In this document: piece by piece, positions 4,918 to 55,800 of the stretch | Layout: every line of letters begins with the position of its first letter | How positions within the stretch are numbered: position 1 is the first letter of the stretch | Source: Trichostrongylus colubriformis | Lineage: Eukaryota > Nematoda > Chromadorea > Rhabditida > Trichostrongylidae | Assembly: GCA_963978905.1 (NCBI GenBank) | Contig: OZ022259.1 | Location: 33,972,343 to 34,036,342 of the forward strand | DNA: 64,000 nucleotides | Direction: 5' to 3' | The notes under the pieces: model-generated | What the model was told of the DNA's origin: nothing | Database searches by the model: none | Seen by the model: only the letters and a program-made list of their open reading frames with translations | Position numbers and translations under genes: made by a program

Positions 4918-5369
4918 GGCCGCGGTCATACTTTGCGCAGCTGCGTTAGTTGACGCCGGTGCCGGCGTCAGTTCACGCAAGTGCCTGCGTGAGTTGACGC
5001 CGGCACCGGCGTCAAACTCAGGCAACCATTTGCCAGCCGCAGACGACGGCGTCAATAGATAATCCGCAGAGTTTGCAAAATTCTTGACCCAATCACACTA
5101 CAGTATGGTGATTGTGGCCGATCCGAATCTTGGCAGTGTGCCGATATGGTGATCGTGGCCGCTTCGTGTATTGGCACAGCGCCAAGATTCGAATCGGCCA
5201 CAATTATCATACTGTAGTGTGATTGGGTCAAGAATTGTGCAAACGCTGCGCATTATCTACTGACGCCGTCGCCTGCGGCTGGCAAATGGTTGCGTGAGTT
5301 TGACGCCGCTACCGGCGTCAACTCACGCAAGTGTCTGCGTGAGCAGCTGCGCAAAGTATGACCGTGGCC
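4918..5369. mobile_element. Palindromic MITE (family P), copy 1
   Basis: The two halves are inverted copies. Ends are GGCCGCGGTCATACTTTGCG and its complement, flanked by TTA/TTA. Internal blocks GACGCCGGTGCCGGCGTC and CAATCACACTACAGTATGGT occur on both arms. The 3-bp TWA duplication and pure palindrome suggest a PIF/Harbinger-type non-autonomous element. Further copies are at 38023-38458 and 55405-55729, with a short relative at 57888-58063. Confidence 0.8.
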
Positions 5370-8791: not shown

Positions 8792-10361
8792 CAGTGCGTT
8801 TCATAATTAGAAGGTCACCCCTGAATTTTAGGTTTTCTCAACAACACCCCATTAAGGAATCTTTTTAGTCTCATAGACGGATTCCTCACCTGAAATAACC
8901 CTCGTATCCGATTTTTGGTTGCAGTCTCGTTTACCTTATGTTTTTAAGAGTATTTTTCGTTTTTTGCACCGTTTCATAATTATAAGGTCACCCTGAAAAA
9001 AGAAAAAATGTTGAGGCTCCAGCAAGTCTCTGAAGGTGCATATGTCTTCCAAATTCATCTTCGAGATACTACTCAATTTTCTTGTGGCTAGCTGCTATGT
9101 CTCGGGACAAAAGCCCAGATTTGGGATTTTTGTGGTGCCAAGCTTAGCTTGAGAGTAATTCCAAAAAAAATCGGAAGCTTCCTGTGCTCAGTTAGATAAC
9201 ATCTGAGTCATTCGGTGTCTTCACATATTTTTCATGCTCTGGACTCCCACGTGAGATCATTGTCATTTACGAGAAAGGAATTTTGGGGACCACTTCCTAC
9301 AGCACCTCCTTCATTAAGCAGATTCATTTGGAGTTGAACCATTCCTTGTCTGGAACCACAGCGCGTACAGTAGTGAGGAAGAGCAGAAACATCACCAAAG
9401 AGATAATGAAGAAGTTTCCGAAGCCTACACCACACCCTGAGGCGGCACAACTTTGAGTCATAAAATTGTTCTTGGGCACGGACTGAACAAAACTGAATTT
9501 GCATAGCAGTTGCACCCTGCATGCGAGTAATACCATCTGAATTGTATTTTTGAGTCTAAAAATATTCTATTTGTATGATGCTGTCGTGCAGAGGTAGTAC
9601 TAGTTTGGTCAGAGAAGTGCGCCAATCTACGGAAGCCTTGGCAATTTTTGTAGGAGAAGGGTGATGGCCTAAGTTTTTTTCGGCAGTGAGCTTGCACTGA
9701 AGCTTGCCTCTGAAACTTGCAGAATAGACTCCAGGTACTGCTAGAAGATCCTACGAAGAAATCAGTTGCCTTTTGGAGCCGATCGGCTCTTCACTATTGC
9801 ATCTTAAAGTATGGCAATGCTGTTGCTCACGTGGGTCATTCAACGTAATTGCGGCTAAAGTCCTGAAATACGCACGCTCAGCCATGGATAACATGTAGTC
9901 ATGGTCTCAGTTCCATTAGGGAGATCTAGAAGACATTACCTCGAATATTTACCCCGATGATTGTCAATTCTGGGAAGCAAAACTGCTGAAACAGGCAATC
10001 GTTGAAGACTGGAACAATATCTGTGGTGAGGTTCTCCGAAATTTAGTTTCTAGTTCACCGAATCTGCTTGTTAATGTCGTTCTCAAATAGGAGAGGGCCA
10101 CAGATTATAAGCTCCTTCGCATGCGCTGTTAACTCTAGCAAATTCTCTGTTTCTTTGGGGTGACCTTATAATTATGAAACAGCACAAAAATGAGAAAATA
10201 TTCATAAAAAATGTTGGCCTAAAAGCTAATGTTATCAAAACTAGTATGGGAAGGTTTTCTGTGATGAGGAATCTATAAAAAATACTTGAAAATTTTTCGG
10301 TCAGCTGCCTCTCTTGAAAACCGAAAATTTGAGGGTGACCTTATAATTATGAAACGCACTG
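8792..10361 (+). mobile_element. Tc3-like transposon A, degenerate
   Basis: The element is 1570 bp and flanked by TA. Its ends are CAGTGCGTTTCATAATTA and its complement. A second copy of the GTTTCATAATTATAAGGTCA site lies about 170-185 bp inside each end, the two-site layout known for Tc3. A decayed transposase remains on the + strand: an N-terminal-domain-like patch near 9370-9450, and a C-terminal patch at 9930-10090 with YPDDCQFWEA and AIVEDWNNI before a stop. The catalytic middle is unreadable. Abuts transposon B. Confidence 0.75.
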
Positions 10362-10363
10362 TA

Positions 10364-11937
10364 CAGTGCGTTTCACCGCTATACGTCCACCTATTATTTT
10401 GGCAGAATCAGTCCTAAACGACTCAGGTTAACTCTGCAATGTATGCCATTAGATTCGGCATATGAGAAAACGGTGATAAACACACTTTCAAGAATTTTGG
10501 TGCTCGAACCTTATTTTTACAAGATTTTTCAAAAATTTTGACCGTTTCACGCTATACGTCCACCCTCAATAATTGTCCCGAAGGGAATTTTTCTTTTCAA
10601 CCCGAGTATATCCACTCGCCAAAAGTGTACGGGAACATGTCCTCTCGCAATGCCACGTGGTTCTCGCCTGTCTACAGAAGAAAAAGCTCAAATTCGAGCT
10701 CTCCACGACGCCGGACTCAGCAACCGACAGATCGCCAAGCAAATCGGCAGGACTTACTGCGTGGTCGGCTGCTACCTCAGAAATCCTGCAAGCTACGATG
10801 CCCGTCGAACTAGCGAACGTCGGTCCAGGCTCTCCGTCAGAGATGAACGGCAGATCGGGAAGCTGGCCTCTAACAGCACCCGCAGTGTCAACCAGATTCG
10901 AGCAGATTTGAAGCTGTCTGCCTCCAAATCGACGGTGTGGAGGGCAATAAAACGTAATAAGAACATCGTGGTCATGAAGAAGGCACCGCGACTGACTGAA
11001 GCTCACAAGGCTGCTCGTCTCGAATTCGCTTGACGGAACGCCTCACTGGATTGGAAAAAGGTTCGGTTGTACAATTAAGCGTAGCTTGTGCACTGCTGAG
11101 TAACCCCATGTGTAAAGGTTGTCTTCTCTGACGAAAAGAAGTTCAACTTGGACGGACCGGACGGCTACAGATGTTACTGGCGTGATTTGAGGAAAGACCC
11201 CGTGCAGTTCAGCCGACGTAACTTCGGTGGCGGTACACTGATGGTCTGGGGAGCCTACTGTTGGGAGAGAAAGTTGGACCTGGCATTCGTCTCAAGCCGA
11301 ATGGATTCTCAAGAGTATCAGAACTCCTTAGAATTCAACCTGCTACCATTTCTGAGCCGATGGCGACGCCATAAGCCGATTTCCCAGCAGGACAATGCAA
11401 GTGTTCATGCTAGCCGGTCGACTTCATCATGGTTCCAACAGCACAACGTCGACTTGCTAGAGTGGCCAGCGTGCAGCCCAGATCTAAATCCCATGGAGAA
11501 CCTCTGGGGAATAATTGTGCGCAGGGTGTACGCCAACTGCAGGCAGTTTGCTACCGTTGACGAGCTCAAAAGTGCGATCTGGACGCTTGAAGTACCATCG
11601 ACTCTGGAATCCTGAAAAACCTTACAGCCAGCATGCCACACCGACTGATAGAAGTGGCTTCCAAGCAAGGAGCACAAATTGACTACTAATCTCGTTAATT
11701 TGTCTTTTTTGAGTTTGTAAATAAACTATTAATTACAGTGGACGTATAGCGAGAAACGGTTGAAATTCTAAAAAAATCTTGTAAATATAGGGTCCAAGCA
11801 CCAAAATTCTTCAAACTGTGGTTATCACCGTTTTCTCATATGCCAAATCTAATGGCATACATTGCAGAGTTGACCTCAGGCGTTTAGGACTGATACCGCT
11901 AAAATAGGGGGTGGACGTAGAGTAGTGAAACGCACTG
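10364..11937 (+). mobile_element. Tc3-like transposon B
   Basis: The element is 1574 bp with CAGTGCGTTTCACCGCTATA ends. It is flanked by TA at 10362-10363 and 11938-11939; the left TA also ends element A. Inner copies of the terminal site (GTTTCACGCTATACGTCCAC) lie at about 10543-10565 and 11735-11757, giving two sites per end. The interior carries a Tc3-type transposase with two lesions, so the copy is probably not autonomous. Confidence 0.88.
10650..11689 (+). pseudogene. Tc3-type transposase (DD34E) of element B, two lesions
   Basis: Begins MPRGSRLSTEEKAQIRALHD, a Tc3-like bipartite helix-turn-helix domain continuing to ASKSTVWRAIKRN. A 57-nt intron (11061-11117, GTTCGG...GTAAAG) precedes VVFSDEKKFNLDG, which holds the first catalytic Asp. 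The second Asp is in QQDNASVHAS, and the Glu is in SPDLNPMENLWG with Tc1/Tc3 spacing. Lesions: an in-frame TGA at 11031-11033 after RLEFA, and a frameshift near 11600 after which ILKNLTASMPHRL continues to TAA at 11687-11689. The protein would act by TA-targeted cut-and-paste transposition in the nucleus. Confidence 0.85.
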
Positions 11938-13600: not shown

Positions 13601-13757
13601 GCGACGGCAGCACACTGCAGAATGGCTGTGGGTAGGCCATTAAGTAGAAAACGCTATCACAACATTGTATTAGAAGTTCTTCTGTTGTGTCAACGAGGTT
13701 GTTGGGTGGTAATAATATTATTTATTATTATTTATTTATATGGTAATATTTATTTAT

Positions 13758-13795
13758 GGCCTGACGTTTCAACAGGATCGCCTTCCTCGAAGGCC
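13758..13795 (-). ncRNA. Hammerhead-like motif in the PLE tail (left arm)
   Basis: On the minus strand the block has a GGCC stem, then TTCGAGGA, a small AGGA/TCCT stem, GAAAC, GTC and a closing AGGCC. GAAAC-GTC with a one-pair stem III and a closing stem I is the layout of hammerhead ribozymes reported in Penelope-like elements. The CUGANGA core is not conserved, so activity is doubtful. Confidence 0.35.
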
Positions 13796-14038
13796 TAAGC
13801 GTGGCTCAAGACTAGGATTTTGTCCACTACACCGTCAAACGCTTCATCCCCTTAGCGGTTTCGACGGAGATCTAGGAAAACACCAGAGAAACTCCGTACG
13901 TCAGAAACAAACTCACCCAATCCACCACCGTACGAGTGGAACAACGCCATTCCGAGTTAGTTGTAATTAGTGAATGAGAGATGCCATGTCGTCCTTATAC
14001 ATATATAGTATTGCTTGGGACATGCATGTCTGCCATTT

Positions 14039-14554
14039 TTAGACCAGTAGCTCGCAATGTGGTGCAAATGGCAAGAGGTCATTTGTGACGGATAAGCACT
14101 CATTTCGGTTGTTCATACTTGGATTTTTTGCGGAAATCCAAAATGCCTCGAGCACTTTTCTAGCTGAAATCTCAGTCTCATATGCCAAAATTGTGCACTT
14201 AACATCAAAATCGTTTTCACCATGCTCCTCGGTCATATGCTTTCCCAAAGGTCTTCTCACGTTACCACGCCTTTTGCCAGCAAGATGTTCTTGTATACGT
14301 ATTGCTAGTGCTCTCCCAGTCTCTCCAATGTACGTTGCGTTACATGCCAGACATTCAATCAAATAGATGACACCGATTTTGGCGCAATCCCCAATTTTAC
14401 CATACGGACATGTAACACTGTTCTCTGGTATGCGCCGCTTAACGTAAAGCCTGTTTCGCACGAGCTGGCCTTTGATATTGCCATTAGGAATACTAACAAT
14501 GACAACATCATCGTCCAGTTTTGCTCGGACGAGGCATCTTCGAATCGGTGTCAT
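14039..14554 (-). CDS. Penelope-like element C-terminus with GIY-YIG endonuclease (left arm)
   Basis: An open 171-codon frame. CPYGKIGDCAK is followed by GVIYLIECLACNATYIGETG (GIY-YIG motifs) and RIQEHLAGKRRG, the Arg-containing helix. The frame then runs through HMTEEHGENDFDVKC and EAFWISAKNPSMNNR to a stop. The reverse-transcriptase part is missing, so this is a 5'-truncated copy. The right arm at 14541-14880 repeats the same part in opposite orientation. Confidence 0.85.
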   Translation of the reverse strand: MTPIRRCLVRAKLDDDVVIVSIPNGNIKGQLVRNRLYVKRRIPENSVTCPYGKIGDCAKIGVIYLIECLACNATYIGETGRALAIRIQEHLAGKRRGNVRRPLGKHMTEEHGENDFDVKCTILAYETEISARKVLEAFWISAKNPSMNNRNECLSVTNDLLPFAPHCELLV

Positions 14555-14880
14555 CTATTTGATTGAATGTCTGGGATGTAACGCAACGTACATTGGGGAG
14601 ACTGGAAGAGCAATAGCAATACGTATACAAGAACATCTTGCTGGCAAAAGGCGTGGTAACGTAAGAACACTTGGGAAAGCATATGACCGAGGGGCATGGT
14701 GGAAACGATTTTGATGTTGAGTGCACAATTTCGTCATATGAGACTGAGATTTCTGCTAGAAAAGTGCTTGAGGCATTTTGGATTTCCGCAAGAAATCCAA
14801 GTATGAACAACCGAAATGAGTGCTTATCCGTCACAAATGACCTCTTGCCATTTGCACCACATTGCGAGCTACTGTTCTAA
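14541..14880 (+). pseudogene. Penelope-like GIY-YIG endonuclease, inverted copy (right arm)
   Basis: GVIYLIECLGCNATYIGETG and RIQEHLAGKRRG match the left arm closely. A frameshift near 14670 moves the rest (MGKHMTEGHGGNDFD, EAFWISARNPSMNNR) to another frame, ending at TAA near 14880. Confidence 0.8.
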
Positions 14881-15122
14881 GAATGGGAGACATGCATGTC
14901 CCAAACAATACTATATATGTATAAGGACGACATGGCATCTCTCATTCACTAATTACAACTAACTCGGAATGGCGTTGTTCCACTCGTACGGTGGTGGATT
15001 GGGTGAGTTTGTTTCTGACGTACGGAGTTTCTCTGGTGTTTTCCTAGATCTCCGTCCAAACCGCTAGGGGGATGAAGGGTTTGACGGTGTAGTGGACAAA
15101 TCCTAGTTTTGAGCTACGTTTA

Positions 15123-15160
15123 GGCCTTCGAGGAAGACGATCCTGTCGAAACGTCAGGCC
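15123..15160 (+). ncRNA. Hammerhead-like motif in the PLE tail (right arm)
   Basis: Inverted counterpart of 13758-13795 and the same 38-nt layout (GGCC stem, GAAACGTC, AGGCC). It differs at a few stem II positions, and the core has the same deviation. Confidence 0.35.
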
Positions 15161-15222
15161 GTTAATAAATATTCCACCTAACAACCTCGTTGGCACAACA
15201 GAAGAACTTCTAATACAATATC

Positions 15223-22000: not shown

Positions 22001-25000
22001 GTGATGGAGTTGCTTAGAATGGAAACCGTTCCAGACGAAAGGGAGAGGCTGATCAGCGCACTCGGATGTCACAAAGATATCTCCGTTTTGAGGAGGTCTG
22101 TTGCTAAAAATTTGAAAATGCAGGCATTCCGACGTTCGTTCTTCATCTTAAAAATTATTTTGAAAAATTATAATCTTGGCATCTTTGAGCACTTTGGAAT
22201 TAGCGACGAATCGTGAGCAGTTCCGTTTGCAAGAAATAAGCAGCGTATTCGAAGCTGTTGCATCATATTCTGTATCCAGTGGCCTCGTATTCAATTTTCT
22301 TTTAGAAAATTGGAATAAAATCTACGGGAGGTGACTGATTTTTCTTGCTTCATCCTTTTACTTCTTTTCTTTATTCATTCTCTTAAGTTTTTGAAAATTT
22401 GTCTCCTTTTTCATGCTGTCGTCCTTGAGCTAAGCTTTAACCTTTTAAAATCTTGGTAATGACAGGTTTATACAATAGGTTGGGTATTTATCATGGCGAT
22501 TAAGAAAATACAGTGGCGGAGATGATGCAGTGACATAGGCGCATACTCTCATTTGCTGGGATCAATCGCAGCCCGCCCAGGTCATTCGAACCTTTTCTTC
22601 AAAGACCTAATGGCTTTTACTTACAACTACGATTTGTATGGGACTAGTATATAACGCTGAAAATTTCATCCATTATCATCCATCACTCTAAGCAACGTGA
22701 TGTGACTCCCGCGACAACGGTCGCGAGGCTCCTTTATCCGTTTACGCCTCTCTGCACACAATCCGATGTTGATGTGTGTGATGTCCTATGACTCGGCACA
22801 ACCAATGATAACTGGTCATTTTCATCAATCGACTTCGATTCTCAACCAGTCTGTTGCGGACGAACGGGCACGCACCCTTACAAAGTGGTTTGTACTATGG
22901 ATGTTTCTAACAAAAATTCTCCGCATATAGTCACAAGTTTTTGCAGCATGTCATACACCATTTGAAAGGTTTTTCTGCTGCACAAAAATTTATGTTGGGG
23001 GTTTGATTATGTTGTAATCGAGCCGACACTCAAGCCGCCAAAAAGGTAAGTCCAGCCAAAAAAAATTGGCCAAACCGGTGATTATTTGAAACACTATATT
23101 CCACTTTCGGAAAATCAATCAGTCATGTGTCCGTGCTCAGCCCCGACCTGTTCTGAAATTTCCAATATTTGGTTGATCGAGAAGTTGCGTCGTTTTTTCT
23201 AAACTCCATTTTCCGAGAGCATCACGTTTATTCGGAATGAAGATTTTTCTTTTGAATCCCTTGCTCAGCATTGCTTCATGGACCATTCGTAGCGATTTTT
23301 TTCTGCTTTGTCGAAAATATGTTTCGTTTTTGTTTTGGCTGTGATTCATATTGAATTTTAAAATTGTGATAGCGGCACAGTTGCACATCACCCAGCACAT
23401 CACTGCGTATTTATTTTTTCAACAGAAACTCGAGAAATCCGGTTTGTAATGTCTCTCCGTCCCTACTCATTACCTGTTCAGTGCTCATGATAGATGTATC
23501 AATCTATTCCAATTAATACAGTCACGCCCTTTCACCCATTTATTAAAGTTACTACCGATACAGCAATGGCACCTCAAATTTGTGTAATTAAACTAAATGC
23601 GCAAATGTTGAAAGTGAACATCATGGTCAGTGAACGAGAATAGATGAAAGGGGGAGTGGGCACGGTACGTGCTGGAAAAGGGTGGCAGCTGCACAGCGTT
23701 CATACCGTGACCGCAGCTGCCTTTTGCAGTTTTTTCATGACCTCTAAGAGTTCGCAAGTGTTGATTAGTTACTTCATCGCCATCTTTTTCCTCTTGTCAA
23801 CAGCGATAACCTGTACTTGTCGTTTCATTGCTTTTCCAGCTAATTGGTTGAGAAATTTTCCCAGCATTGATCTGAAGAAATTGTCAAAAATCACCGAGTT
23901 GTGGCGGAAAAACCAATTTTGGGAGAAGAGCGACTTGACTCAATCAATTGGTGGAACTTGGAGAAAACGTCGTGGATAAGTACGATGCATATGATTGGTT
24001 GATTTTTTTAACATTTGCCGGTTTGGTCGATTTTCGTAGACTAAAAATACTTGACCACCCTGAAAATCGTCCTCATTATAACGCACATAAAAACCGAACA
24101 TGTCATTTCAAAAAGCAGAAAAATTTCTTCCGAGTGACATATGACATACTGCAAATCTTGTAATTTTATAAGAAAAATTTTCTTTGAAAAAACAACATTA
24201 CTTATGGGTTGACCCAATAGGAGGACTAAGTATTCCATTCTCGACCAACATTTGTTTTCGATATGAAAAATTTTCCAAAGCACTACAGTCTGAAATAAAT
24301 TCTCCATTTCGTCAATAACTTCATTCGTCACTCAAGAAATGGTTACCTTCCTAAAAAAACTGCCTCGCCTGTGACCGCGAAAGCTCTACGTCATTAAGGT
24401 TATTACATCAACTAGGCAACCTTGTCGACTCACAATGTTTATGTTCAGTCTGATTATATTTTCTGAGAGCAATGACAGTTTGGTAGCCTGTTTTTATATG
24501 CTTCGGAATCTCCTTCGGTCCAAGAATATCATCCTATTTGAAGGGGTGCCCAACCACCCATGGGTGGGTGGACAACAAAGTTCATAATCCTGATCCAAAG
24601 CGGCCGGGGCAGCGCGAGGGTAAATTATATCAAGTGGCATTTCAGTGACTGCAGCACAAATATTAGATGCCTTTTCCTTAACTACGGGATCCTAAAGGAA
24701 CTTGTTAACAATTACGGTTCCGAGTATGAGTTTTTTTTTATTTTAGCCGGTTCTTCTTACAACTGGGCGAGATTGCCTTATATACATTCTGCAGAAGAAG
24801 AAATCGAAAAGTTCGCAAAACTTATGCATCAACCTAATAGGTTGACAGCTCTCCCTCACCACACGCACAGCCTGGACATTAACCTAGCTGATTAGCAGCT
24901 TTGACCTAGCTCGTCACCTGGACTCGAGAAACTGCAGGACGCACTCTTATGTCGAAGACGCGCTGAAATGCGCCTGTTTTATTCTGCGCTGGCTTGCTTC

Positions 25001-28000
25001 CTCGAGGAATCGCATAAGCGGCCCGGATCTTAAGAGTGAGCCGTCATCAAAGATAGTGGATATGTTTAAGCTACTTTTACTTGTACAGAAAAGTAGATCG
25101 CTCTAAAAACATGCGAAAACGTGATGTTTTGCGGGGTGCCGGAAAACACTATCGGAAGGTAGAGCAGGTTGAAGTCAACATGTATGGCACGCGGGCCTCG
25201 AACAGACCTCAGACTTGGGCAATTAAACACTATCCTTAATTACGAAAGAGATCAGCAGAGCTTTTCCTGATCCTTGAGACGATCGCTCTAGCCTCGGATC
25301 CCTTAAAGACACCAGGAGGGGGTAATTTTGGCTTACGGTGGGACAGACGTAGTGTGGACGAGATTGAGTGGCCGCCATTGCACAAACTCGCCAATTTGAC
25401 GCCTTGGCATGATGCCAAAAGAAGGTGGTTCTAATATAGATTTGTTTTTTTCCTTTTAGTTTTTACTTTGTTCCTTCTTACATTGTTTCTAGATGTACTT
25501 ACGGGTCAAGTCGGGGGTGGGGGGGAGACGCAAAATTTTCACCCACGTCAAAGCTTCTTTCCCTTCCTAGGGTTAGAGTAAAGCAGATGAGACCTATGCT
25601 TTGACAGATGCTTTTTAATGTGAGAGGAGGGGATATCAATTTCAGCCTAAGCCTACTAAGGGAAAGGAGCTTCGACGTCGACGCAAAGTTGCGTCTCCCC
25701 CCGACTTTATTTGACCCTTCTGAGATTTTCAGGTATAGAAATGCACAATTAAGAAGATCCGTAAGTAAACAAGTAAATATGTCACTAGAAAACAGTAAAG
25801 AGGAAATAATTCAAAAATAAGGCTACATCAGGCCGAAGACAAGCTTTAAAACGAACGAAGCGTGCTTGCAGTTCGGACGGAAGCGCGCCCTGGGGGCAAA
25901 TAGCGCCCTGTGGCGCGTTTTTCAACGCCGGTTTCGTTACACATCGTAACTCCCGAACCCATATGTTTGTTTTCAGACGCCATTGTTTTCGTAAACGTCA
26001 TTCCGCCCTTGCCCCCCTCCCGGTGCCTTTAAAGTCGCCGCACAATTTGGTCTATCAACGCCTCAACGCCTGAGTGTTGCCGTATTTGTCTTTCGAGTGG
26101 ACCTCTACCAGCAGTTCTTTGAGGGATCTCGAACTGCTTCACGAACTCTTCAGCATCTCCTTGTAACGCGTCCAGGAGGTAGTTCATCTTGTACAGATCG
26201 TCGATCTGTCAGGAGTGCACTGAGTGCTCGAACGCCCCCCAGAACGTTTCCCATTCTCGAATTCGTCCTCTGAATTTTGGAATGAGAAATGGGCCAAGTT
26301 CATCACCTCGCCGAGTATGGAGCGTCCTTTTCTGAGCTCGCTAAGTTCTTCCAACCAATTTGATATTGTAGTTGACGCAGAGTACGCCTTGTCGAGACGA
26401 GCTGTCGCAGCATTACGTTGGAGGTCACCTTTCAGAATATCCTCTATGGATGGGATGTCGTCCTTCAGTTCCTCCGCAGCCCGAATGTATTGCTCTGGTT
26501 ATTTGTCCACTTTGTCGATCTCCGCATCCAACACTGTCTTTGCCTGGCGAGGCATCTGCTGGTGCGAAGTGATGTACGCCAGTTGATCCTGCTCCTCAAC
26601 GAGTGGTTCAATTACCGAAGTTATGTACCCAGTTGATCCTGCTCCTCAATGAGTGGTTCAATTACAAATGAAAGAAAACCGCTATGCCGCTCGAAGGTAT
26701 TTTCTAGCCTGTTTAGCGTGCGTGTCAACAATCCATGTTGTGTGGATAGCGTGGTGGTCATGCTTGTGTTAGTGCGATGACGGGTTACAAAGACGTAGAC
26801 AAGTGCAATTGACGACGACTCGTGCAAGTGACAAACGTTTAGAAGATATCGTCTTACCTCCTTGTCCTCCTTGTTCGTCGTTACCGAATTCTACTTTTTG
26901 CTGGTAGCTTCGCTGCTTATTCTTCCGAGAGCGACGATTTACCGGGCTGTGCTTAGGTCCTAGACGGCAGTAGTTTCAGAATCGTCTGTCTGCGTTGAAT
27001 AGGTTGCTCTCGACTTGCTCCGTCAATCGAATAGTTCACGTTCCGGCGCTCGATTTCTGCTAGTGTCGTGAACGCCTGGGTCTCCTGGTCAGTCCTAGAA
27101 AAAGCAATCGTTCAAAATATCGGTCCCTGGACGAGTAACGTGAAGTTGTCCTTGACTTACTGGTCCGTGTCCGCGAACGGCTGCACTGCTCCAGACCGAT
27201 TAATGCTTTCCCTGCTCTGAGCCCAGTACTGCAACTGGAACTTGGCTTTAACTCGATGCTCGATCCGTCCTTGTCTGTCCAAAGGTCGATGCACCATATG
27301 CCATGGGGGCTCGAACAGATCTCAAACTTGGGTAATTAACTTTATCCTTAAAGGAACCGGAAGGGGTCTAAACAAGAGGAACATGTAAAGAAATGAGCAT
27401 TTTGTAACGAACACTGAAGGTTAGAAGCAATAATCGGCGAAATAACTCCGATTCGAAAGACGCTGCGGTGTGTATTTGCATCCAATTCGCATCCACACAT
27501 AGACTTTCCGAGTTGTCCGTTGTAGGAGACGGGCCACGGTCCAATGTTAGTTGTAGCACCTGACTCGCAGCGCAGTGGAGTGGCCATTCCCAACTACATT
27601 AGCATTCATGTAAGTACATCTAGAAACAATATAAGAAAGAACAAAGGAAAAAGTAAAGGGGAAAAACAAATTTATAATAGAAGCATCTCCTCTTAGCACC
27701 ATGCCAAGGAGTCAAATTGGCGAATTTGTGCAATGGCGGCCACTTCAACTCGTCCACGCTACGTCTGTTCAACCGTAGGCCAAAATTACCCCCTTCCGGT
27801 GTCTTTCATTACGAAGGAGTCCTTACATACGGTTCGCTCTGGGCGGAGCCAGCTCTGTGTTGTCATTCCAATACCAAGATCAGCCAAGTGATAACTATTC
27901 TACAGCTTACAAGATGGGTCATCGATACAAATCCTAAGAGGTTGAGCTTAGAATAATAATGACAATTCACCAAAAATAGAGAGGATTCCCCATAACATGG

Positions 28001-31000
28001 CAGAGGAGGTTGAAGTATAGCACAGAAATATCATCTTTGGTATAGGCATTTCCAAGAAGCGAACCCGATGTGTTTCGATAATTTGCTCACTCAAGGGGGA
28101 CAAAAACCTCAAAATTCCGAGCTGTTTATAATGTACATTTTTTAGTCTCCGAGATCTTCTCCTATTAAATAAAGTTATTGAGGTGTGCCTCAGTGTAGGC
28201 CATACTGAAGAACACTATAATAAGGTCAGTATTTGATCTCAATACATTTGTTGATGTCACGACTACTATCTGTTAGGACTCGATTCCGAGTCAACTATAA
28301 TGCTTGATCATAATAAGGTATTGCGAAGAAATATGAAGATGAGACCGCGGCATCAAAGAAAAAAGGAATCGGGCAGGCGCGGTTGTCGACTGGTCACTGG
28401 AGATAGAGCCGCACGTGATAACTGATGCTCTTTACATCACTCCTACAGCTACTTCGATCATGAAGTCACAGCGCGCACCTGTTTAGGCACCCGGGTAACC
28501 CACCAACTAGGCTTTTCAAAACTCAGTCACAGTATCCAGTTATTTAAGATTTTTAAGTTGAATTTATAGTATTTCGAGCATTGATCTCGCACACCTTGCA
28601 ATACACGCATATTGTAACCGTACTTCACTTTCCTCTAATCTGGTCTGTCCCTCGTGACGATACTTGGCCTCCCATTAGCATGGGACCAATCGATACACTG
28701 TACGCATCTATGTGTATCCACAGTGGCGCTCATTTGTTTCCAAACACTATGACAAACCTAAAAATTATTTGCTTTCCAAATTAGAAGAAATTCTGCATTC
28801 TTGGCACGAGTAACCTCAAGATTTCATTTCTGTTGGATGACGTCTGACTTTATTCATACAGTGTGTCCCAAAAGTATAGGTCCACCTTATTTTTCATCCA
28901 TATCTCCAGAATGGATAAGCGATTCCTTTCCAAATTTTTATATGTAGTACCTGATCACTGTAGCAATCAAGCGCCTCAGTAAAATTGAAGACATAAAAAT
29001 GCAAAATTTTATTTGATTTTTTTTTCAAAAATAAGGGTGTCCCAAAAGTATAGGTCCACTCAGCTTTTCCGCCTTGCTTCCATCGAAAGGTAAGTTGTGA
29101 GGTAGGTGTGTTGACGCATCCTTCTGAGATTTACTCTACAGTGAAATGCCAAGCGGTACGCACTTTTCCGAGTACGAAAATGGGCAAATTCTGGCCCACA
29201 AGGACGTGGGACTCAGCAGTCGCAAAATTTCTGAAAAGTGGGCCTATTCCAAAGCTCGATCAACAGCTTCTGTCGTACCATGGACCCGTACGGAACGAAA
29301 AAGGGAAGTAGAAGGCCGTAGGAGCTTTCTGAGAAGCAGGAGCGTCGGATCCTCAAAGCTGCGTCCAATTCCAGAAAGGGTGCTTGTCGACGGTGCAGGG
29401 AACTGGCACCTGCTGTATCGAAAAACACTGTGCACCGTCTGCTCAAGTCGTCTCCTCACATCGAGCGAAGATGGTTTTCGTCCTTGCCATACCTCACGAG
29501 GGCGCACGAAGAGGCTCGAATCCATTTTGCCAAGTAGAATGTCAGGTGGACCCATCAATAGGATGAGGTAGTCTGCAGGGTTACATTATTGACGTAGTAG
29601 TTCACACAGCATTAGTAATGGTGTTGCAGGTGATCTTTTCTGATGAGAAGAAGTTCAATTTGGACGGCTCGGACGGCTTAGCTAGTTACTGGAGGGATTT
29701 GGGGAAGGAGCCATGCTACTTCTTGAGGCGCGGATTTGCTGGTGGTAGTGGTATGGTAGGGACCGCCTTCTCTCGCTTTGGTTAGAGCAGGATACTATTC
29801 ATCACGCATCATATAGATTCCAGGGCTTTGCAGGACGTTCTAGAAAGTAATTTACTACCATATAAACAGCGGTACATACAAACATTAGGTGCACAGCCGA
29901 CCAACACCCTTTCTGGAATCGGACGCAGCGTTGAGGATCCGTCGCTTCTGCTTCTCAGAAAGCTCCTACGGCCTTCCAGTTCCCTTTTTCGTTCCGTACA
30001 GGTCCATGGTACGACAGAAGCTGTTGATCAAGCTTTGGGATAGGCCCACTTTTCAGAAATTTTGCGATTGCTGAGTCCCACGTCCTTGTGGGCCAGAATT
30101 TGCCCATTTTCGTACTCGGAAAAGTGCGTACCGCTTGGCATGGCACTGTAGAGTAAATCTCAGAAGGATGCGTCAACACACCTACCTCACAACTTACCTT
30201 TCGATGGAAGCAAGGCGGAAAAGCTGAGTGGACCTATACTTTTGGGACACCCTTATTTTTGAAAAAAAAATCAAATAAAATTTTGCAATTTTATGTCTTC
30301 AATTTTACTGAGGCGCTTGATTGCTACAGTGATCAGGTACCACATATAAAAATTTGGAAAGGAATCGCTTATCCATTCTGGAGATATGGATGAAAAATAG
30401 GGTGGACCTATACTTTTGGGACACACTGTAGTATTTTCACCGAAGATCCCTTTCGAGTAGGATAATCCTATCTCCTACTCTGAAAAGCTTGTGACTAGCA
30501 AGCTTGTGAGAACGAGAAAAGTCATATTAGCTGTGAGCGTGCACAGGCCACGCTACCATTATGATTTCCCGATTTGATGAATGGTTCTTCGGCAACAGCT
30601 ACCATTTATTCCTTCCTCTTGTCTTCCCATTTAACGAGAACTGTGATATGGGGGGTGTAGGTTGGGACACACGGATTTTGACCTAGGCCGCTATCCTGTG
30701 ACAGCTTGTGGCCTTTGCTCTGTGACATAAATTATTTAGACAATTTATTCAGGAATTTCCAAAAAGTGAATTTCCAATTTGAGAGAAAATTATTATCGAG
30801 CCTTCCATACTTCAGAGAGGATAAGTTTGTTGGAGTCAACTGTCACACCCGAATTCTCACCAGTATTCGCACAATGCTCTACTCGCTTTTCGAAATATCT
30901 TAGGAGAAAACTGTTATAAAGGACAAGTTTAAGGGATGTGCATGGTCCCCGCGTGACCTAGTTGCCCTACTGACTGTGTGTCCCAACCGTCACCCATGAT

Positions 31001-31836
31001 ATCGGCATATGTCCTCGTATTCATACCACCATTCGCACACTGCATTAAACAGAACATTGTGCCTCTACCTTGCTCAAGTGAGGTGAAGCGAAGATTTCTC
31101 GTTCGGTGAGCATTACACATGAGCTCCGTAGCCGATAAAATCGAGAACAACTTCTGATGTGGAACACCAGAGATTCTTGAAAGGAATAGTTGAAAAAGTT
31201 GTAAACTCGTGATGTCGTTTGAAAGTGTTTGAAGACTGGAAATAGATGAGTAGAAGTGAGAGACGAACGTTTCTCGTGGGATATGGTCTCGTGTCAGGGT
31301 GGGCGGAGCCAAAACGCGTAACACGTTGTGAGTTAGTGTGAAAGTCGAGAGATTACTATCATATGCAAGGATAGGTACTACTGGAAATCAGTAATTCATG
31401 TAAAAGGGCGAGAACGGGTAATTATAACACTTTTATGCTTGCGCACGCTACTTCGCGAATCTAGCGGTGGAATATATTGAACGCCACGATCAAACCCCAC
31501 GATCAAATAGAGACAGCGCCACAGATACACACATAGTAGTGCGATTTCGCCATGTATTGGTTTGAAATAGCATACGATATGTTCAAACCCAATTCTAAAA
31601 TGCCGATTTGCCAAGTTTTTCGAACGTTGGAAAGGAAATGACCAAGGAAGCGACCGAATACATCTTCATGGACGAAAACCGAATTTCTTTTCTAGATAAA
31701 GAACTTCATGAATGAACACAAAGAAGCGGCCGAATTGAATCAGTTCCACAAAGGTCTTGAACTTGTCAGGACTCGAATCACATGGATACATGACCATCTG
31801 AATCCACTGCTGGACTACTTTCAACAGAATCAGTGA
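22001..31836 (+). CDS. M1-family aminopeptidase, C-terminal exons only (ERAP1-C-like domain)
   Basis: Four exons join in phase: 22001-22095, 22190-22330, 28146-28224 and 31696-31836 (TGA), 456 nt, 151 residues. Diagnostic segments are ERERLISALGCHKD, FRLQEISSVFEAVASY, FNFLLENWNKIYG, LRDLLLLNKVIEVCL and RTRITWIHDHLNPLLDYF. This is the helical-repeat C-terminal domain found after the zinc-peptidase domain in M1 enzymes. The HEXXH catalytic exons were not found in the window; a weak candidate upstream exon lies at 20789-20879. Introns 3 and 4 are 5815 and 3471 bp and carry a SINE, mariner-like and CCGGAAGGG-type elements, BEL/Pao gag and a Tc3-like foldback. Splice sites are TTTTTTTAG, TTTGAG, TTTTTTAG and TTTTCTAG acceptors with GT donors. 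The gene may be intact with its 5' half farther left, or a remnant. Confidence 0.72.
22511..22690 (+). mobile_element. tRNA-derived SINE, copy 2 (in an M1-gene intron)
   Basis: GTGGCGGAGATGATGCAGTG, GGGATCAATCGCAGCCCGCC and a TAACGCTGAAAA...ATCC end parallel the 17845 copy, though more diverged. It is in the sense orientation of the host gene. Confidence 0.55.
22880..24217. mobile_element. Mariner-like MITE (family T), copy 1, with internal insertion
   Basis: Co-linear with 50555-51536: AACCGGTGAT, CAGTCATxT, ATTTGGTTGATCGAG, ATCACCGAGTTGTGGC and others recur in order. The right end TTGGGTCAACCCATAAGTAA (minus strand) is followed by TA at 24218. The left end is degraded. About 300 bp near 23550-23830 is absent from the other copy. 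No transposase is readable. It sits in the third M1 intron. Confidence 0.65.
25305..26030 (+). mobile_element. CCGGAAGGG-type element, variant with a different interior
   Basis: Starts AAAGACACCAGGAGGGGGTA and follows the 7625 copy for about 200 bp. It then has an unrelated middle and ends CCCTCCCGGTGCCTTT, inverted to the start. Either a chimeric family member or one with an insertion. Lies in the M1 intron. Confidence 0.6.
26040..26660 (-). pseudogene. BEL/Pao-type retrotransposon gag remnant
   Basis: The minus strand reads, with stops and frameshifts, a gag of the BEL/Pao kind. A charged helical part (LEELSELRKGRSILGEV) comes first. A segment around EWETFWGAFEHSVH and LYKMNYLLDALQGDAEEFVK follows, typical of the capsid-like region in nematode Pao elements. 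No protease, reverse transcriptase or LTR was found. It is antisense within the 5.8 kb M1 intron. Confidence 0.7.
26578..26665. repeat. Local tandem duplication in the gag remnant
   Basis: A block of about 37 bp beginning CCAGTTGATCCTGCTCCTCA occurs twice, about 49 bp apart, with one substitution. It probably arose by replication slippage. Confidence 0.8.
27350..27806 (-). mobile_element. CCGGAAGGG-type element, inverted copy
   Basis: AAAGGAACCGGAAGGGG at the left and CCCCTTCCGGTGTCTTT at the right. The interior matches the reverse complement of 7625-8086. In the M1 intron. Confidence 0.8.
28859..30428. mobile_element. Tc3-like foldback element C
   Basis: The 1570-bp element is flanked by TA (28857-28858, 30429-30430). 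The left 540 bp (28859-29398) and right 540 bp (29889-30428) are nearly identical inverted copies, around a 490-bp middle. Each arm holds two copies of GTGTCCCAAAAGTATAGGTC about 175 bp apart, plus the 5' end of the transposase gene. The normal 3' half, with the second catalytic Asp and the Glu, has been replaced by an inverted copy of the 5' half. In the last M1 intron. Confidence 0.9.
29146..29860 (+). pseudogene. Truncated Tc3-type transposase in element C
   Basis: Starts MPSGTHFSEYENGQILAHKD with a helix-turn-helix-like GLSSRKISEKWAYSK; frameshifts follow. A 62-nt intron (29568-29629, GTAGTC...TTGCAG) sits immediately before VIFSDEKKFNLDGSDG, the same place as in element B. The frame breaks after GGSGMVGTAF and then enters the inverted right arm. 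No second Asp or Glu motif is present. Confidence 0.8.
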
Positions 31837-38022: not shown

Positions 38023-38458
38023 GGCCGCGGTCAAACTTCACGTGTCTGCGTGAATTAACGCCGGTGCCGCCGTAAACTCACGCAAGTGTCTGCGTGAGAT
38101 GACGCCGACACCGGCGACAAACCGACGCAACCATGTGCCTGCCGCAGCCGACGGCGTCAGTAGATAATGCGCACCGTTTGCAAAACGCTCGACCCAACTA
38201 TACTACAGTATGGTGACCGTGTCGAGAGCCCACGATTAAGATTTCGAATCTTGGCATAGTGCCATACTATGACATATACTAGTTTGAATCCCTGGGCCTT
38301 CGCCACGATCACCACACTGTAGTGCGGTTGGGTCGAGCGTTTTGCAAACGGTGCCCATTGTCTATTGAAGCCGTCGTCTGCGGCAGACACATGGTTGCGT
38401 CAGTTCGACGCCGGTGCCGGCGTCAACTCACGCATACACGTAAAGTACGACCGCAGCC
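38023..38458. mobile_element. Palindromic MITE (family P), copy 2
   Basis: GGCCGCGGTCAAACTTCACG and an inverted end, flanked by TAA/TTA. GACGCCGGTGCCGGCGTCAA and CACTGTAGTGCGGTTGGGTC match copy 1. The centre differs somewhat from copies 1 and 3. Confidence 0.78.
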
Positions 38459-43530: not shown

Positions 43531-46326
43531 TTACATAAAATCGCCAACACGTTGTTTGAAAATGGTGTACTTCACCGGGTAGACATTCTTACGTAACAAT
43601 GAGTTAAAACCTGACCGTACTCTGTTTGTAAAAAACTGCGACCTGTACTTGGACTTTGCTGTATTTGTAGTAACTCTTATCGACGCTCCTCTTGCATTAG
43701 TTGGCAACACTAGGAAGAAATTACGTGAATCTATCTTTACCAACTGTCTGAGAATTTTGAAAGTCATGAGTAGGTCATACCGTTTCCTCCTCCATTCTAG
43801 AGATTTTAGACCTAACTCAACATTTCTGACCACCCTATTAGGGATATCAGAGTATTTTAGACCTGAACACCTTAGCATTAACTTCCTCGTAAAACCATTC
43901 TGTACAGATTCCAAGGCCTGGATATCCTTTTTTGAGCATGGGTTAAAGACCGTAGTGCCACACTCCAAAATAGGACGCACATAAAGTTTATATGAGCGTA
44001 GCAAAATGTTAGGGTTTTTAGTGCGAAGTGACTTGAATAAATTGAAAATTCTGCGAGTACATTTGGCCACTACTGTTTTGTAATGCTTAGAGAAGTTTAG
44101 CTTATAGTCGTAATGAAAGCCGAGATCTCGAACTTCTGGCACTGACCTCAGCTGGACATGACCTGCAAAATAGACGGGTTCGTTCGCATGTGAATCTAAG
44201 CGCATTACCTGTGTTTTATCCGAGGATAGAACTAGACCATTGGCTTTGGACCACTCTACAACCTTGTCAATAGCAACCTGAAGGGCTTTGTCAGAGACAA
44301 CATCTTCTACCACTTTGTACAACTTAATATCATCAGCGTAGATATTACACTGAACACCCATACCCTGAAGCTCATATGGCAGATCTGCAGTAAAGATATT
44401 AAACAGTACTGGGGAGAGAACACCTCCTTGAGGTACTCCGCTACAAGCCATGCGTATTGACGAAAAGGCATCTCCTACCAAGACTTGGAACGTTCTATTA
44501 TCAAGAAAGTCTCTTATCCAGTTCACTACCAGAGCGTGAACTCCCAGATGTTTCAACTTACGAATTAGAACCTCATGGGACAACTTATCAAACGCCTTGC
44601 TGAAATCAAAATAAACCACATCCACATTCTTTTTTGAGTCCAATGCAATCGTCCAATCATTCATACAACAAAGTAAAGATGTTTCAGTGGATCTGCCAGA
44701 ACAGAAACCATGGTGCGATTGAGAAATCATACCATGTTTATCCATATGACTCAACAGATACTTTTTGATTACTTTTTCGAATACTCTGGCAAAAATGGAA
44801 GTCAGACTCACGGGTCTGTAATTATTGGGATCAGAGAGTGGTTCCTTTTTAGGAAGCGCTAAGATTATTGAGTGTTTCCACTTACACGGAACCTCACCGC
44901 GCATTAGACTGAGATTAAACAAGAATTCCAGGGGACCACTGATTTCATGAATGCAGTGTTTCACAAACTTGAACGGTATATTCTCGCTATTGGTAGAGGC
45001 CGCCGAGGACCATTTTAGCAAAATGTCGGCGATAGAGCTCTTATCGAACCATGGGGACGTTTCACAGACAGGCTTACCGGGGATAGCCAATTGCGTCCAA
45101 GGAACCGTTGTCAGTACAAAGGCATTTTCAAAAATGTCTGCTAATACCTCTGCCTTAGCTTCATCGGTGATAGCCCTTTCTGAGTTAACAGTCACCAGCG
45201 TACCTATTCTATGTTTGTCGGAAAGGCGCGTTCTAAGAATAGCATATAATGCTTTTAGTCCACCTTTAGATAGTTGTTTACCCTCTACATACGCATAGAA
45301 TTTATCCAGCTTCTTTAGCCACTTCCTACTGATAGATTGAAACTTATTCCAAAAACACCCGTTTTGAGAAACGACAGCCTTTCTCCATAAGTTTTCCCTT
45401 GCTAGCTCCATTGCCCGCAGGTATTTTGGCAATTGGAGTCTCTTACTTTGAACTTGGTGCTTGAGTGGAATGAACAGTTCCATAGCATGGTGTAGTATTG
45501 CCAGGAACATTTCATACTTCCCGTTTAAGCTATCAACGTTGTTAAAAGAACCCAGCCAGTCAACGCTTCTGAGGTACGCCCTCATCTCATCAAAGTTCGC
45601 ATTCTTGTAATCTCTACGCCAGACGATTGTCTCCGCCAATCCACAAGAAGAAGTAAGACGAAATTTCACAGAGGAGTGGTCACTGGTGCCTAATGGTAGA
45701 CCTTTCTGTACTGGGGATACAGCAGAACTATCACTGCAAAAAAGCAAGTCCAAAAATGAAGCACCCCTTGTAGGAAAAGGGACGAGCTGAACAAAACCGT
45801 GGGTGCTAAACATGTGGAGGCCTGTGAGGTTATTCAAGTGAGACCGGGATGATACTGGGTGAAACAGCTGAGGGAGATTGAAGTCCCCCGCAACTACACT
45901 AATAGCATTGCATGAACTCAAATCACTAATTGCCTTGCTGAGCTGACCAGTTTTAGACGATGAGCAAGATGGGGCCCTATAAACCGCAATAATTCTGTAT
46001 TCTGAAAAATGGAACATTATATCACATGCTAATATTTCGTATGAATCCTTAACCGACTCACTAAATAACACATTTGCCGAATGAGGCCTTCGGACCATGA
46101 CCGCAACTCCACCACCTCTTTTTCGCAATCTGTCTGAGCGATATACCTCATATTGTGTTGCAACCATACCAAGTAAAGGAGCCGTGTCGATTTTAGAGTT
46201 CAACCATGTCTCCGACAATATAGCTAGGTCGAAGTCTTCCTTACAAATAAGTGCAGCGAGAGCATCAGAATTTCTAACCAATGAACGTATATTAGATATC
46301 TCTGAGTATTGTCCTGTCCCGAAGCC
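43531..46326 (-). CDS. CR1-type LINE ORF2: AP endonuclease plus reverse transcriptase
   Basis: An open frame of at least 916 codons without any break. Its first part is an apurinic-type endonuclease: LAILSETWLNS (catalytic Glu), VVAGDFNLPQLF (Asp/Asn) and LGTSDHSSVKF (Asp-His). The reverse transcriptase has FARVFEKVIKK, SHHGFCSGRSTETSLL, VYFDFSKAFDKLSHEVL, GVPQGGVLSPVLFNI and the catalytic YADDIKLY. The C-terminus has LESVQNGFTRKLMLRCSG, as in CR1. It performs target-primed reverse transcription. The frame can be read upstream to about 46326 (NIRSLVRNSDA), so the annotated start may be internal. The RT and endonuclease signatures are complete, suggesting a recent insertion. Confidence 0.93.
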   Translation of the reverse strand, partial: GFGTGQYSEISNIRSLVRNSDALAALICKEDFDLAILSETWLNSKIDTAPLLGMVATQYEVYRSDRLRKRGGGVAVMVRRPHSANVLFSESVKDSYEILACDIMFHFSEYRIIAVYRAPSCSSSKTGQLSKAISDLSSCNAISVVAGDFNLPQLFHPVSSRSHLNNLTGLHMFSTHGFVQLVPFPTRGASFLDLLFCSDSSAVSPVQKGLPLGTSDHSSVKFRLTSSCGLAETIVWRRDYKNANFDEMRAYLRSVDWLGSFNNVDSLNGKYEMFLAILHHAMELFIPLKHQVQSKRLQLPKYLRAMELARENLWRKAVVSQNGCFWNKFQSISRKWLKKLDKFYAYVEGKQLSKGGLKALYAILRTRLSDKHRIGTLVTVNSERAITDEAKAEVLADIFENAFVLTTVPWTQLAIPGKPVCETSPWFDKSSIADILLKWSSAASTNSENIPFKFVKHCIHEISGPLEFLFNLSLMRGEVPCKWKHSIILALPKKEPLSDPNNYRPVSLTSIFARVFEKVIKKYLLSHMDKHGMISQSHHGFCSGRSTETSLLCCMNDWTIALDSKKNVDVVYFDFSKAFDKLSHEVLIRKLKHLGVHALVVNWIRDFLDNRTFQVLVGDAFSSIRMACSGVPQGGVLSPVLFNIFTADLPYELQGMGVQCNIYADDIKLYKVVEDVVSDKALQVAIDKVVEWSKANGLVLSSDKTQVMRLDSHANEPVYFAGHVQLRSVPEVRDLGFHYDYKLNFSKHYKTVVAKCTRRIFNLFKSLRTKNPNILLRSYKLYVRPILECGTTVFNPCSKKDIQALESVQNGFTRKLMLRCSGLKYSDIPNRVVRNVELGLKSLEWRRKRYDLLMTFKILRQLVKIDSRNFFLVLPTNARGASIRVTTNTAKSKYRSQFFTNRVRSGFNSLLRKNVYPVKYTIFKQRVGDFM

Positions 46327-52809: not shown

Positions 52810-55800
52810 ATGGAGTCACCCGTCATGGAAAGCACTTCATCGCTCGAACCAACTATATCGGATAGAATTACTGCAAGCTGTCCTCCAGAACCATGTGCCA
52901 TATCCGATTATGGACGCTTTGCCGCTGTAGTCAACGATTCGAAGGGTTTCGTTGGCTCAGGAACCTTTGAAGATGTGCCATTCAAGAGGGAGAGACCGGA
53001 AAGGCCAGGAGAGGTATGTTTTTGTGGCATCTATACCTTCAACAGCCAATTGTCATAGAAATCGGGTCTTTATCACTTTCCGCTTGTGTAATATTTATTT
53101 CGCATTCAGACGCAATCCGCCTGCGAAAGTAGAACTCTCAGCAGAGCTTGCAGTACACTGTTGGAGGAGGCCATAGAGGAAGAATCAGAAGTGCCAGCTG
53201 AAACAGATCGTTTCGGGTTTTTCGTGCGGTCGGATGAAGTATATCCGGTAAGGTGAGTTCCTCTGCCCCAGTTCAGCAAATTCAAATTTTGGTTAAAGTT
53301 GGGTTGGGATTGAAATGGTTCTGTTTTCGGATTGAATTTTTCTTTTGGAGAACAGAGTCTTCCATCAATCTGGACAAGCTAAGGAAACGAGAAAAGAAGT
53401 GGATACATATGTTGGACAACTGGAGGTACTTTATGGACGAAAAGTACGTTTTGAAGATATTTGCGTACTCACTTTCTTGTGGTGCCAGAATTCAGCCCTC
53501 AAAAAAGTAGCTTCAGGTTCCCAACAGTGCGCGAACGCTGCAGAAAAGGGATTCCACCCTCAATGAGAGGAAAGGCATGGAAGTACCTGTGTGGTGCAAC
53601 ATATCAAATGGAGGTCTCTTCCAATCGGACAGTTTTCGACGCAAGTGCTTTATTATTCTATGATTAATGTGAGGAGAAACTAATTGGATTCGAATCGTAT
53701 CAAGTTGTCCGTTCGAGATTTTTACATTCCCTTCCTTTTGCCACTGTAAATAACCTGGATCATGCTCTGAAACGAGAGTTCCATATCATGCGACGCTTCT
53801 CCACCCACATTTTTATCGGAATAGATTTAGAGATGCATGAGCCAACCGGGTGATCCTAAGTGGATCGACGAAATTGAGAAGGACCTAAATCGGCAGTTTC
53901 CAAATCACGAAATGTTCTCCAGGACTGGCAAATTCGGTGACGCGGGGTAAGTTTTTCGCCGACGCTGCAAATCTGGTGCTTGTCATCAAGGTTTCAGGAA
54001 GGAAGACCTGTTTCAACTTCTGAAAGCGTGGACCGTTCTTCACCCTGAAGAAGGATACTGCCAAGGCCAAGCTCCTGTGGCCTCTGTACTTTTGATGCAT
54101 ATGCCCCTCAGGTATTGAATGATTCTTTGACATTGTCGTATGAATATTTTTTTCTTTTTCAGAGATGCGTTTTATTGTTTTGTTCAAATATGCCATAGAT
54201 ATCTTCCCGATTATTATAGCCCTGGTTTGGTAAGTTTTGAATTGTTTTATGCTCATCAAATTTTGAAAAGTATTGTTTGTAGGAAGCAGTGCAAGTCGAT
54301 GGGGACATACTAGTCCAGTTGCTAAAAGAAAAGTCGAGAATCAGTTATCAACACATGGTGAGGTGTACTTCTTAACACTGCATATCTGCAAGAAAGTCTG
54401 ATGAAAACGCGAAAATTTGCGCTATGAATGCGAATTTTAACGTCGTAAGGCTGTTTAGATTTCCTTCCTTTGCTTAGTGTTATAGAACTATTATTCTATT
54501 TTACACCAACATCATTTTTGCCGCGAAATTCCTCAATATCAAGGGACCACACAAGTTAGAATTTCTGCGAGGAGAATGCATGCAAAAAAAAGAGATTTTA
54601 TCAGAAAAGTTGGCTTCATGCACCATATCACACTATCGTTATCATTAGTGTTCAGTAAACCCAACACTAATGATTACGATGGTGTGATAACGTGCATGAA
54701 GCGAGGTGAAGGTACCAGAAAGGGAGCAGGTCGGCTGTGTTGTTGCTCGCCACGTTCACTTCTGATCAGGAGGAGCGAAATCTGGCATGGCTATTTTTCA
54801 AAGGTTACCAGTGTGTTAGAATAATTTCTAGTATTCCAAGACGTTTGATAGCTGCTGGCCGAATGATGCGACTTGACCAGAAAGGAGTCTGGTGAAATCA
54901 AGGATTGCTTTTCCAGAAAAAACAAAACGTGGAGCCCGTGCTTTATATGGTGGAATGGTTCATGTGCATTTTCTGTCGCACTCTTCCATGGCCAACAGTT
55001 CTACGCGTTTGGGACATGTTCTTTTGCGAAGGTAAAGTGATCATATGTGCTAAAGCACAGCCTAGGAGTGCTATAATTCAGGTGCAAAAGTCTTGTTCAA
55101 AGTAGCTGTGGTATTGTTCAAATATGGACTAGGTAGTAAAGAGCAATGCAAACAGTATCCTGATCTACATTCAATAGTGACTCGTCTCAGAAATCTTCCG
55201 CAAAAAATCACTTCTGAAGAGTTCTTAGTGGAGAAGGTAATCTTATACTACTTATTATTCGTCTAGTATGTCTGTGTGTGTCAGTCTGCCTGTCACAAAA
55301 TTCATATGTCGCATCGCAGCAAAGCTAGAACACAGAATTTTACAAGTGATAGAAGAGATTAAAGGGCCTCTAGCGATGGTAAACCGAAAGTGATAGCAGC
55401 TGTAAGGCCGCTTCCATACTTTGCGCACCGACGCCGTCACGCGCGTGACGGCGTCCATAGATGATGCGGTCCCAATCACACTACAGTATGGTGTTGTGGC
55501 CGATTCGAATCTTGGCGCTGTGCCAATACACGAAGCGGCCACGATCAATACACGAAGCGGCCACGATCACCTTATTGGCACAGCGCCAAGATTCGAATCG
55601 GCCACAACACCATACTGTAGTGTGATTGGGACCGCATTATCTATGGACGCCGTCACGCGCGTGACGCCGGCACGCGCGTGACGCAGGCACGCGCGTGACG
55701 GCGTCGGTGCGCAAAGTATGGAAGCGGCCTAAGAATTGTTAAGCAGCCTCGAAAGCAGACGTCGTCAAACCCGTTTCGCCTTTCGGGCGTCCTATAGGGC

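Follow-up and report, generated by a model that had tools for sequence, protein, structure and literature searches.

The window, by which we mean the whole stretch of 64,000 nucleotides of Trichostrongylus colubriformis DNA that was analysed, carries a Tc3-like element of 1570 bp at positions 28859-30428, with the ends CAGTGTGTCCC...GGGACACACTG and a flanking TA on either side. The right 539 bp of this element are an inverted copy of its left 539 bp (96.5% identity, gapless). When the flanking TA is included, the arms (28857-29397 and 29890-30430) have 541 nt each and differ by 19 mismatches and no gaps. The element thus has a foldback architecture, with arms of 2 x 539 bp out of 1570 bp and a loop of 492 nt between them. 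Each arm bears a two-site terminus, in which a 26-nt direct repeat at positions 2-27 occurs again at positions 176-201. We take these repeats to be transposase binding sites, as in Tc3. The TA target duplication and the CAGTG ends are as in Tc3-like elements of the Tc1/mariner type. The features are collected in Table 1.

An original prediction, made from the letters of the window, had described the locus as a Tc3-like transposon with its 3' half replaced by an inverted copy of its 5' half, with the two-site terminus and the start of the transposase gene in both arms, and with TA on both sides. This structural observation is confirmed. The arms of 539 bp are 96.5% identical to each other and the right half is foreign to a normal one, the 26-nt repeats and Tc3-like pieces are present in the left part, and the bounding TA is seen here as well as in 53 of the 54 copies read whole from the genome (see below).

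Table 1. Features of the foldback element and of its surroundings in the window
Feature	Position	Strand	Remarks
Comparison Tc3-like element of ordinary architecture, 1574 bp, TIR 213 nt, HTH and DDE_3 domains	10364..11937	+	
Possible exon, M1-type aminopeptidase C-terminal (ERAP1_C) domain; weak	22191..22331	+	16.3 bits vs. cut-off 38.2; E 0.002
TA target-site copy, left	28857..28858	.	sequence; TA on both sides in 53/54 copies
Left arm, 539 bp: terminus, 5' leader, start of broken transposase gene	28859..29397	+	
Outer 26-bp site of two-site terminus, left	28860..28885	+	
Inner 26-bp site, left	29034..29059	+	
141-aa frame from left-arm ATG; transposase-like at start only, then out of frame (most other copies read: 58 aa)	29146..29571	+	
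Spacer with transposase exon 1 end, a probable intron, and the DDE exon start including an in-frame stop	29398..29889	+	
Foldback junction	29889..29890	.	at 78/78 genome sites of exact spacer 30-mer
Right arm, 539 bp, left arm inverted, 96.5%	29890..30428	-	
37-aa frame from right-arm ATG (most other copies read: 58 aa)	30028..30141	-	
Inner 26-bp site, right	30228..30253	-	
Outer 26-bp site, right	30402..30427	-	
TA target-site copy, right	30429..30430	.	
Possible last exon of same M1-like gene	31698..31836	+	reading of sequence; outside matched stretch

Transposase remnant

The second HTH region in the left part of the foldback matches PF21517 (30.3 bits vs. a cut-off of 27.2). SDEKKFNLDG is found at offset 781, and the DDE exon opens with VIFSDEKKFNLDG. 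When a protein-cluster search was made with the foldback transposase, 18 of 143 candidates reached E 0.001. The top-scoring relative is a Haemonchus contortus protein (41% identical over 99% of the query); the remaining ones are 30-54% identical over equal or shorter parts. Among the best-scoring named relatives in our searches are Haemonchus contortus, Ancylostoma ceylanicum, and Ostertagia; the transposase has one in a wasp as well.

The ordinary Tc3-like element at 10364-11937 served for comparison. Its TIRs comprise 213 nt only (85% identity) and the right half of 28859-30428 is therefore foreign to a normal right half. The foldback reading ends just before the point where the comparison element has QQDN, and there the inverted left arm follows. 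According to the assignment that we presume for these residues, the DDE triad thus lacks its second D and its E. The length of 1570 bp was considered as proof of an in-place replacement and was set aside, as an intact relative is predicted from 10364-11937 to have about 1590 bp, which is a loose match.

In the window copy, a frameshift and stops break the transposase gene in both arms. About the first 31 residues of its arm frames (141 and 37 aa) match the unbroken frames of other copies, and a frame of 58 aa is found in both arms of 44 of the 54 whole copies. It had been predicted that the element encodes only an N-terminal fragment. The DDE part is indeed missing, but the frameshift leaves neither arm of this copy with an intact N-terminal domain. 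Given the missing DDE part, the stops, and the frameshift, the foldback is a non-autonomous derivative and not an autonomous Tc3-like member.

The comparison element and another Tc3-like element (8792-10361) lie back to back, with one TA common to both. The latter has 1570 bp with a TIR of about 218 nt at 69% identity; no transposase was noticed in it by six-frame translation and by a Pfam search of the plus strand.

Genomic setting

The foldback had been placed in an intron of an M1 gene. One possible exon (22191-22331) matches solved structures with E 0.002 and scores 16.3 bits in Pfam, which is under the cut-off, and no second M1 exon was detected by Pfam from 3.9 to 43.2 kb (E up to 0.1; minus strand from 13.7 kb upwards). 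From this single weak match, the foldback may lie within an intron of an M1-like gene, for which 31698-31836, a stretch outside that match, reads as a possible last exon. Rfam and tRNA scans gave no matches.

Further repetitive sequences are present in the window. A second large palindrome at 13664-15219 consists of inverted GIY-YIG remnants, presumably Penelope-like, with arms of 430 and 128 nt (97% and 95% identity). Shorter, MITE-like near-palindromes are located at 4973-5342, 38086-38439, and 55432-55669, with related sequences among them. A LINE frame (43531-46326) extends over 931 aa without stops; its best relatives, Ancylostoma and Haemonchus proteins among them, are 44-47% identical. 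A DUF1759 match at about 26125-26274 (minus strand) represents a gag remnant, which we assume to be BEL/Pao-like.

Young foldback copies

The genome to which the window belongs (331 Mb, or 330.9 Mb to one decimal, with 329.6 Mb on six large contigs) was searched for further copies, as had been suggested with the original prediction. At least 88 copies were found in addition to an older set, a lower bound that includes copies known from their junction only or from the fetched sequence only. They occur on all six large contigs (C1, C3, C5, C6, C7, and C8).

With the left arm plus 53 nt of the spacer as a query (592 nt), the best 40 of 638 candidates all match from end to end with 98-100% identity. 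Each of these 40 loci was read out and proved to be a complete foldback with TA on both sides. With the whole element as a query, the best 40 of 430 candidates match over the full length, two of them being short of the left end by 1-2 bases. Taken together, the two sets comprise 54 distinct whole copies, which were chosen as best matches to the window copy and hence are not a random sample. The foldback is complete in all 54 (1518-1574 bp), and 53 of them lie between two TAs. Their divergence from the majority sequence has a median of 0.51%, a mean of 0.63%, and a maximum of 1.66%. Comparison of the 300-bp flanks gave three matches in all, one of these within a single copy; as the flanks differ otherwise, the copies are separate insertions.

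An exact 30-mer from the spacer occurs 78 times in the genome, and the foldback junction is present at each of these sites (49 in whole copies, 14 by the exact junction pattern at the expected distance, and 15 by reading, one of which is collinear, yet altered by small gaps). The element at 28859-30428 is one copy of a multiplied mobile foldback family rather than a one-off, and the last wave of multiplication, with a median of 0.51% from the majority, is recent.

Older foldbacks and deletion derivatives

The terminal 30-mer occurs 415 times in the genome, while its reversed control is absent (0 occurrences). With two ends per element, this number would correspond to about 207 elements. From the first listed part of these occurrences, 12 further elements were taken as paired spans away from the known copies; they were chosen by span and 11 are located on C1, so that this sample is not random. 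TA is found on both sides of all 12.

Ten of the 12 are full-length foldbacks of 1568-1581 bp, which align with the window copy without a break at the junction and share 87-89% identity with it. Their arms have about 553-561 bp (92-97% identity) vs. 539 bp in the window copy. Pairwise identities among the ten range from 90.5 to 99.6% (0.4 to 9.5% apart), with two tight clusters, one of three elements at 99.2-99.6% and one of two at 98.9%. Because the older elements are collinear with the window copy through the junction, the foldback is older than the split into subfamilies and has since moved in more than one wave.

The other two are deletion derivatives (L110, 499 bp; L111, 992 bp), which have kept both ends and the TA flanks and are possibly the start of a MITE series.

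Probable sequence exchange between the arms

The majority sequences of the two arms, as computed from the 54 whole copies, differ at 22 of 540 positions. Among the variant cells at such sites, 204 of 212 have the base of the other arm and 8 have a third base, although part of the 204 can reflect an older state that was retained in one arm. Both homogenised states occur beside the mixed state at 11 sites (37, 141, 234, 243, 245, 248, 286, 287, 351, 391, and 453), which form 8 groups (243/245/248 and 286/287 being counted together). This pattern needs either exchange between the arms or recurrent mutation. At five of the 11 sites (141, 243, 245, 248, and 391), one homogenised state is found in a single copy only. 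All four states occur at sites 286-287, the rarest of them in one copy, which is the window copy.

Eight differences at 483-535, adjoining the loop, are kept in 52-54 of the 54 copies. The distinction between this region and the rest fits conversion in the outer part of the arms with little of it near the loop. It would also fit a right arm which came from a diverged copy or which aged longer near the loop. Palindrome arms are known to undergo conversion, and such a process has been proposed for inverted repeats that are conserved in Caenorhabditis (PMC1803023).

Origin and movement of the family

The lack of a related intact element had been named as a result that would speak against the prediction, and in the limited sets of loci that were sampled none emerged, which goes against the functional part of it. 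No element with the same ends and a normal right half is present among the 78 spacer sites and the 54 whole copies, all of which are foldbacks, or among the 12 further elements, with their ten foldbacks and two deletion derivatives. Loci which carry the transposase part that is missing in the foldback were retrieved with the C-terminal half of the transposase as a query; from the best 150 of 3239 candidates, 30 loci were compared and none (0 of 30) shares the foldback ends. An exact-anchor pattern for the normal continuation had 0 matches, a weak search since the anchor fits one subfamily only.

The C-terminal query turned up another abundant Tc3-like family instead, with elements of about 1.55 kb and TIRs of 218 nt. 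Two of its copies (L086 and L087) are 97.8% identical, and many rows among the matches listed have one TGA in the DDE part.

We consider it very likely that the element at 28859-30428 belongs to a long-lived non-autonomous foldback family, which descends from a Tc3-like transposon, was formed once by inverted templated repair, and has been moved in trans since. Formation would have been one event during repair or replication of a Tc3-like element, in which the left half, and not the right half, served as template for rebuilding the right end, since both terminal repeats are alike. About 550-560 bp would have been copied in inverted orientation and joined within the transposase gene. The intact ends with their TA, an inverted copy anchored at the outside, and an abrupt inner junction within the gene are what would be expected from repair at the wrong terminus, judging from the product. 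Template switching during gap filling of TIR transposons has been described (PMC8277862).

As both ends have kept the two-site terminus, the foldback could be moved by a foreign transposase. The transposase of another element would recognise these termini and carry the foldback to new TA sites, and a cross-acting Tc3-like transposase is the likeliest mobiliser. Spread has proceeded in at least two waves, represented by the older set (87-89% identical to the window copy) and the recent set of at least 88 copies. The arms would meanwhile keep swapping sequence, a process that may preserve the palindrome, save for the part close to the loop. Arm peptides and hairpin RNA may be by-products, for which there is no sign of function.

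Alternative explanations

The original prediction had suggested a trans-acting silencer: the transcribed foldback would yield a long hairpin RNA, and small RNAs made from it would silence the parent transposase, as proposed for Mu killer. A single hairpin is predicted for the inner 1488 nt of the element, its stem having nearly 500 bp, and the whole arms (539 bp) have just 19 mismatches, so that a hairpin RNA from the foldback is possible in principle. In Mu killer, too, one terminus is present twice and a part of the transposase gene is inverted (PMC3440606), and in C. elegans, Tc elements are silenced by RNA pathways (PMC6829131). The sampled elements include no close relative of normal structure, as if the parent were gone. 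No matching target was found among them in the genome. The recent last wave (median 0.51%) is unlike a family that silences itself, and the location in an intron of the host gene is tentative. The same window has a further palindrome whose arms add up to a similar length (430 + 128 nt), besides several that are shorter. For Mu killer itself, the read-through hairpin model is disputed in the cited article, which favours short antisense transcripts (PMC3440606). With recent multiplication and no related intact element in the sampled set, the silencer role is unsupported and we regard it as quite unlikely.

A variant of this idea has the killer outliving its victim. The hairpin-making derivative would have silenced and eliminated its own autonomous parent, it would persist and spread via a borrowed transposase which the hairpin RNA does not match, and exchange between the arms would keep the hairpin nearly perfect. 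These three proposals taken jointly have a slender chance of being correct.

The foldback might also have formed several times, with every subfamily derived separately from a normal family. Such a history could account for the longer arms of the older elements (about 553-561 bp vs. 539 bp) and for subfamilies that are about 10% apart. However, each of the ten older elements of full length gives one continuous alignment with the window copy over the junction, in seven of these ten the right-arm frame runs past the arm into the same sequence, and the shorter arm fits decay of its inner end. Multiple origins therefore are quite improbable, and we retain a single origin by templated repair.

According to another part of the original prediction, the element could act as a dominant inhibitor, in that the head-to-head arm frames yield a stand-alone DNA-binding piece of the transposase which blocks the termini. 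The 58-aa frame that most whole copies (44 of 54) have in both arms, together with longer frames over the same domain in several older elements, would be in line with this, as would a match of the 58-aa frame to the Tc3 DNA-binding domain, at a sub-threshold 15.0 bits (cut-off 21.1). The 58-aa frame has no match among solved structures and only sub-threshold matches in Pfam, and the arm frames of the window copy are broken by the frameshift.

The substitution pattern argues against a selected peptide. New changes in the arm frames of 40 young copies number 10 silent, 31 replacement, and 2 stop, compared to about 24/73/3% expected without selection for those frames. Before counting, 32 changes to the other arm's base, with 0 silent and 32 replacement among them, were excluded as exchange; gaps in the frame, present in 11 of the 80 arms, were left out too. 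For seven subfamily representatives, dN/dS is 0.77 for the left arms (bootstrap 0.43-1.50) and 0.91 for the right arms (0.50-1.87), computed over up to 79 codons minus gapped and stop codons. Between subfamilies, the leader (positions 1-280) differs by 6.1-6.8% and the frame by 7-11%, depending on codon position. The arm reading frames thus appear to evolve as if neutral, with no sign of selection, though the intervals are wide and compatible with weak selection. With counts and dN/dS near neutral, a functional arm peptide was rejected as unsupported, and its action as a dominant inhibitor is very unlikely.

That the palindrome stems from an error of assembly or sequencing, or from a rearrangement unique to this locus, is practically excluded, even though chimaeric long reads can in general produce palindromes: the arms differ at 19 of 541 positions, and the same structure or junction recurs in at least 88 copies at different sites, which also settles the check for an artefactual inversion that had accompanied the original prediction.

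Comparison with known systems

Foldback derivatives are often regarded as dead ends. Here, a foldback made of a mirrored half of a transposase gene has lasted through about 10% divergence, its last wave is young, and no full-length relative has been found so far. This raises the questions of which transposase moves a seemingly parentless family and of how a long palindrome that is being copied keeps its arms alike. Every copy could give rise to a hairpin whose arms exceed 500 bp, and the family would therefore lend itself to a clean test, under natural conditions, of whether hairpins from transposons supply the small-RNA pathways of nematodes.

Foldback transposons as such are already known (Tc4, Galileo, Tetris, and Tm1, in the literature covered). 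A Tc3-derived foldback family of the present kind was not found in that part of the literature, which consists of titles and the beginnings of abstracts. The arms of Galileo, Tetris, FB, and Tm1 are made of repeats and are not known to contain transposase code. These elements have the foldback architecture in common with the window element; they are P-type, Mutator-type, or other elements of Drosophila and root-knot nematodes, as far as the same titles and abstracts describe them.

Tc4 has long arms and a coding variant, Tc4v, and its branch and termini differ from those of the window foldback. By its title, the report of Yuan et al. (1991) presents Tc4 of Caenorhabditis elegans as a nematode Tc element with an unusual fold-back structure. 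Compared to Tc4, the window foldback is Tc3-like, has two-site termini, and carries the transposase start inside its arms.

Closest in the window is the Tc3-like element at 10364-11937, which resembles the foldback in its length (near 1570-1580 bp), its TA targets, its domains, and the presence of two sites in each terminus. It is unlike the foldback in having TIRs of 213 nt and a normal right half with a whole DDE domain. Mu killer of maize resembles the foldback in being an inverted duplication of a terminus together with the start of a transposase gene (PMC3440606). Mu killer, however, is a single locus derived from a Mutator element and silences its parent, whereas the foldback in the window belongs to a family that has multiplied.
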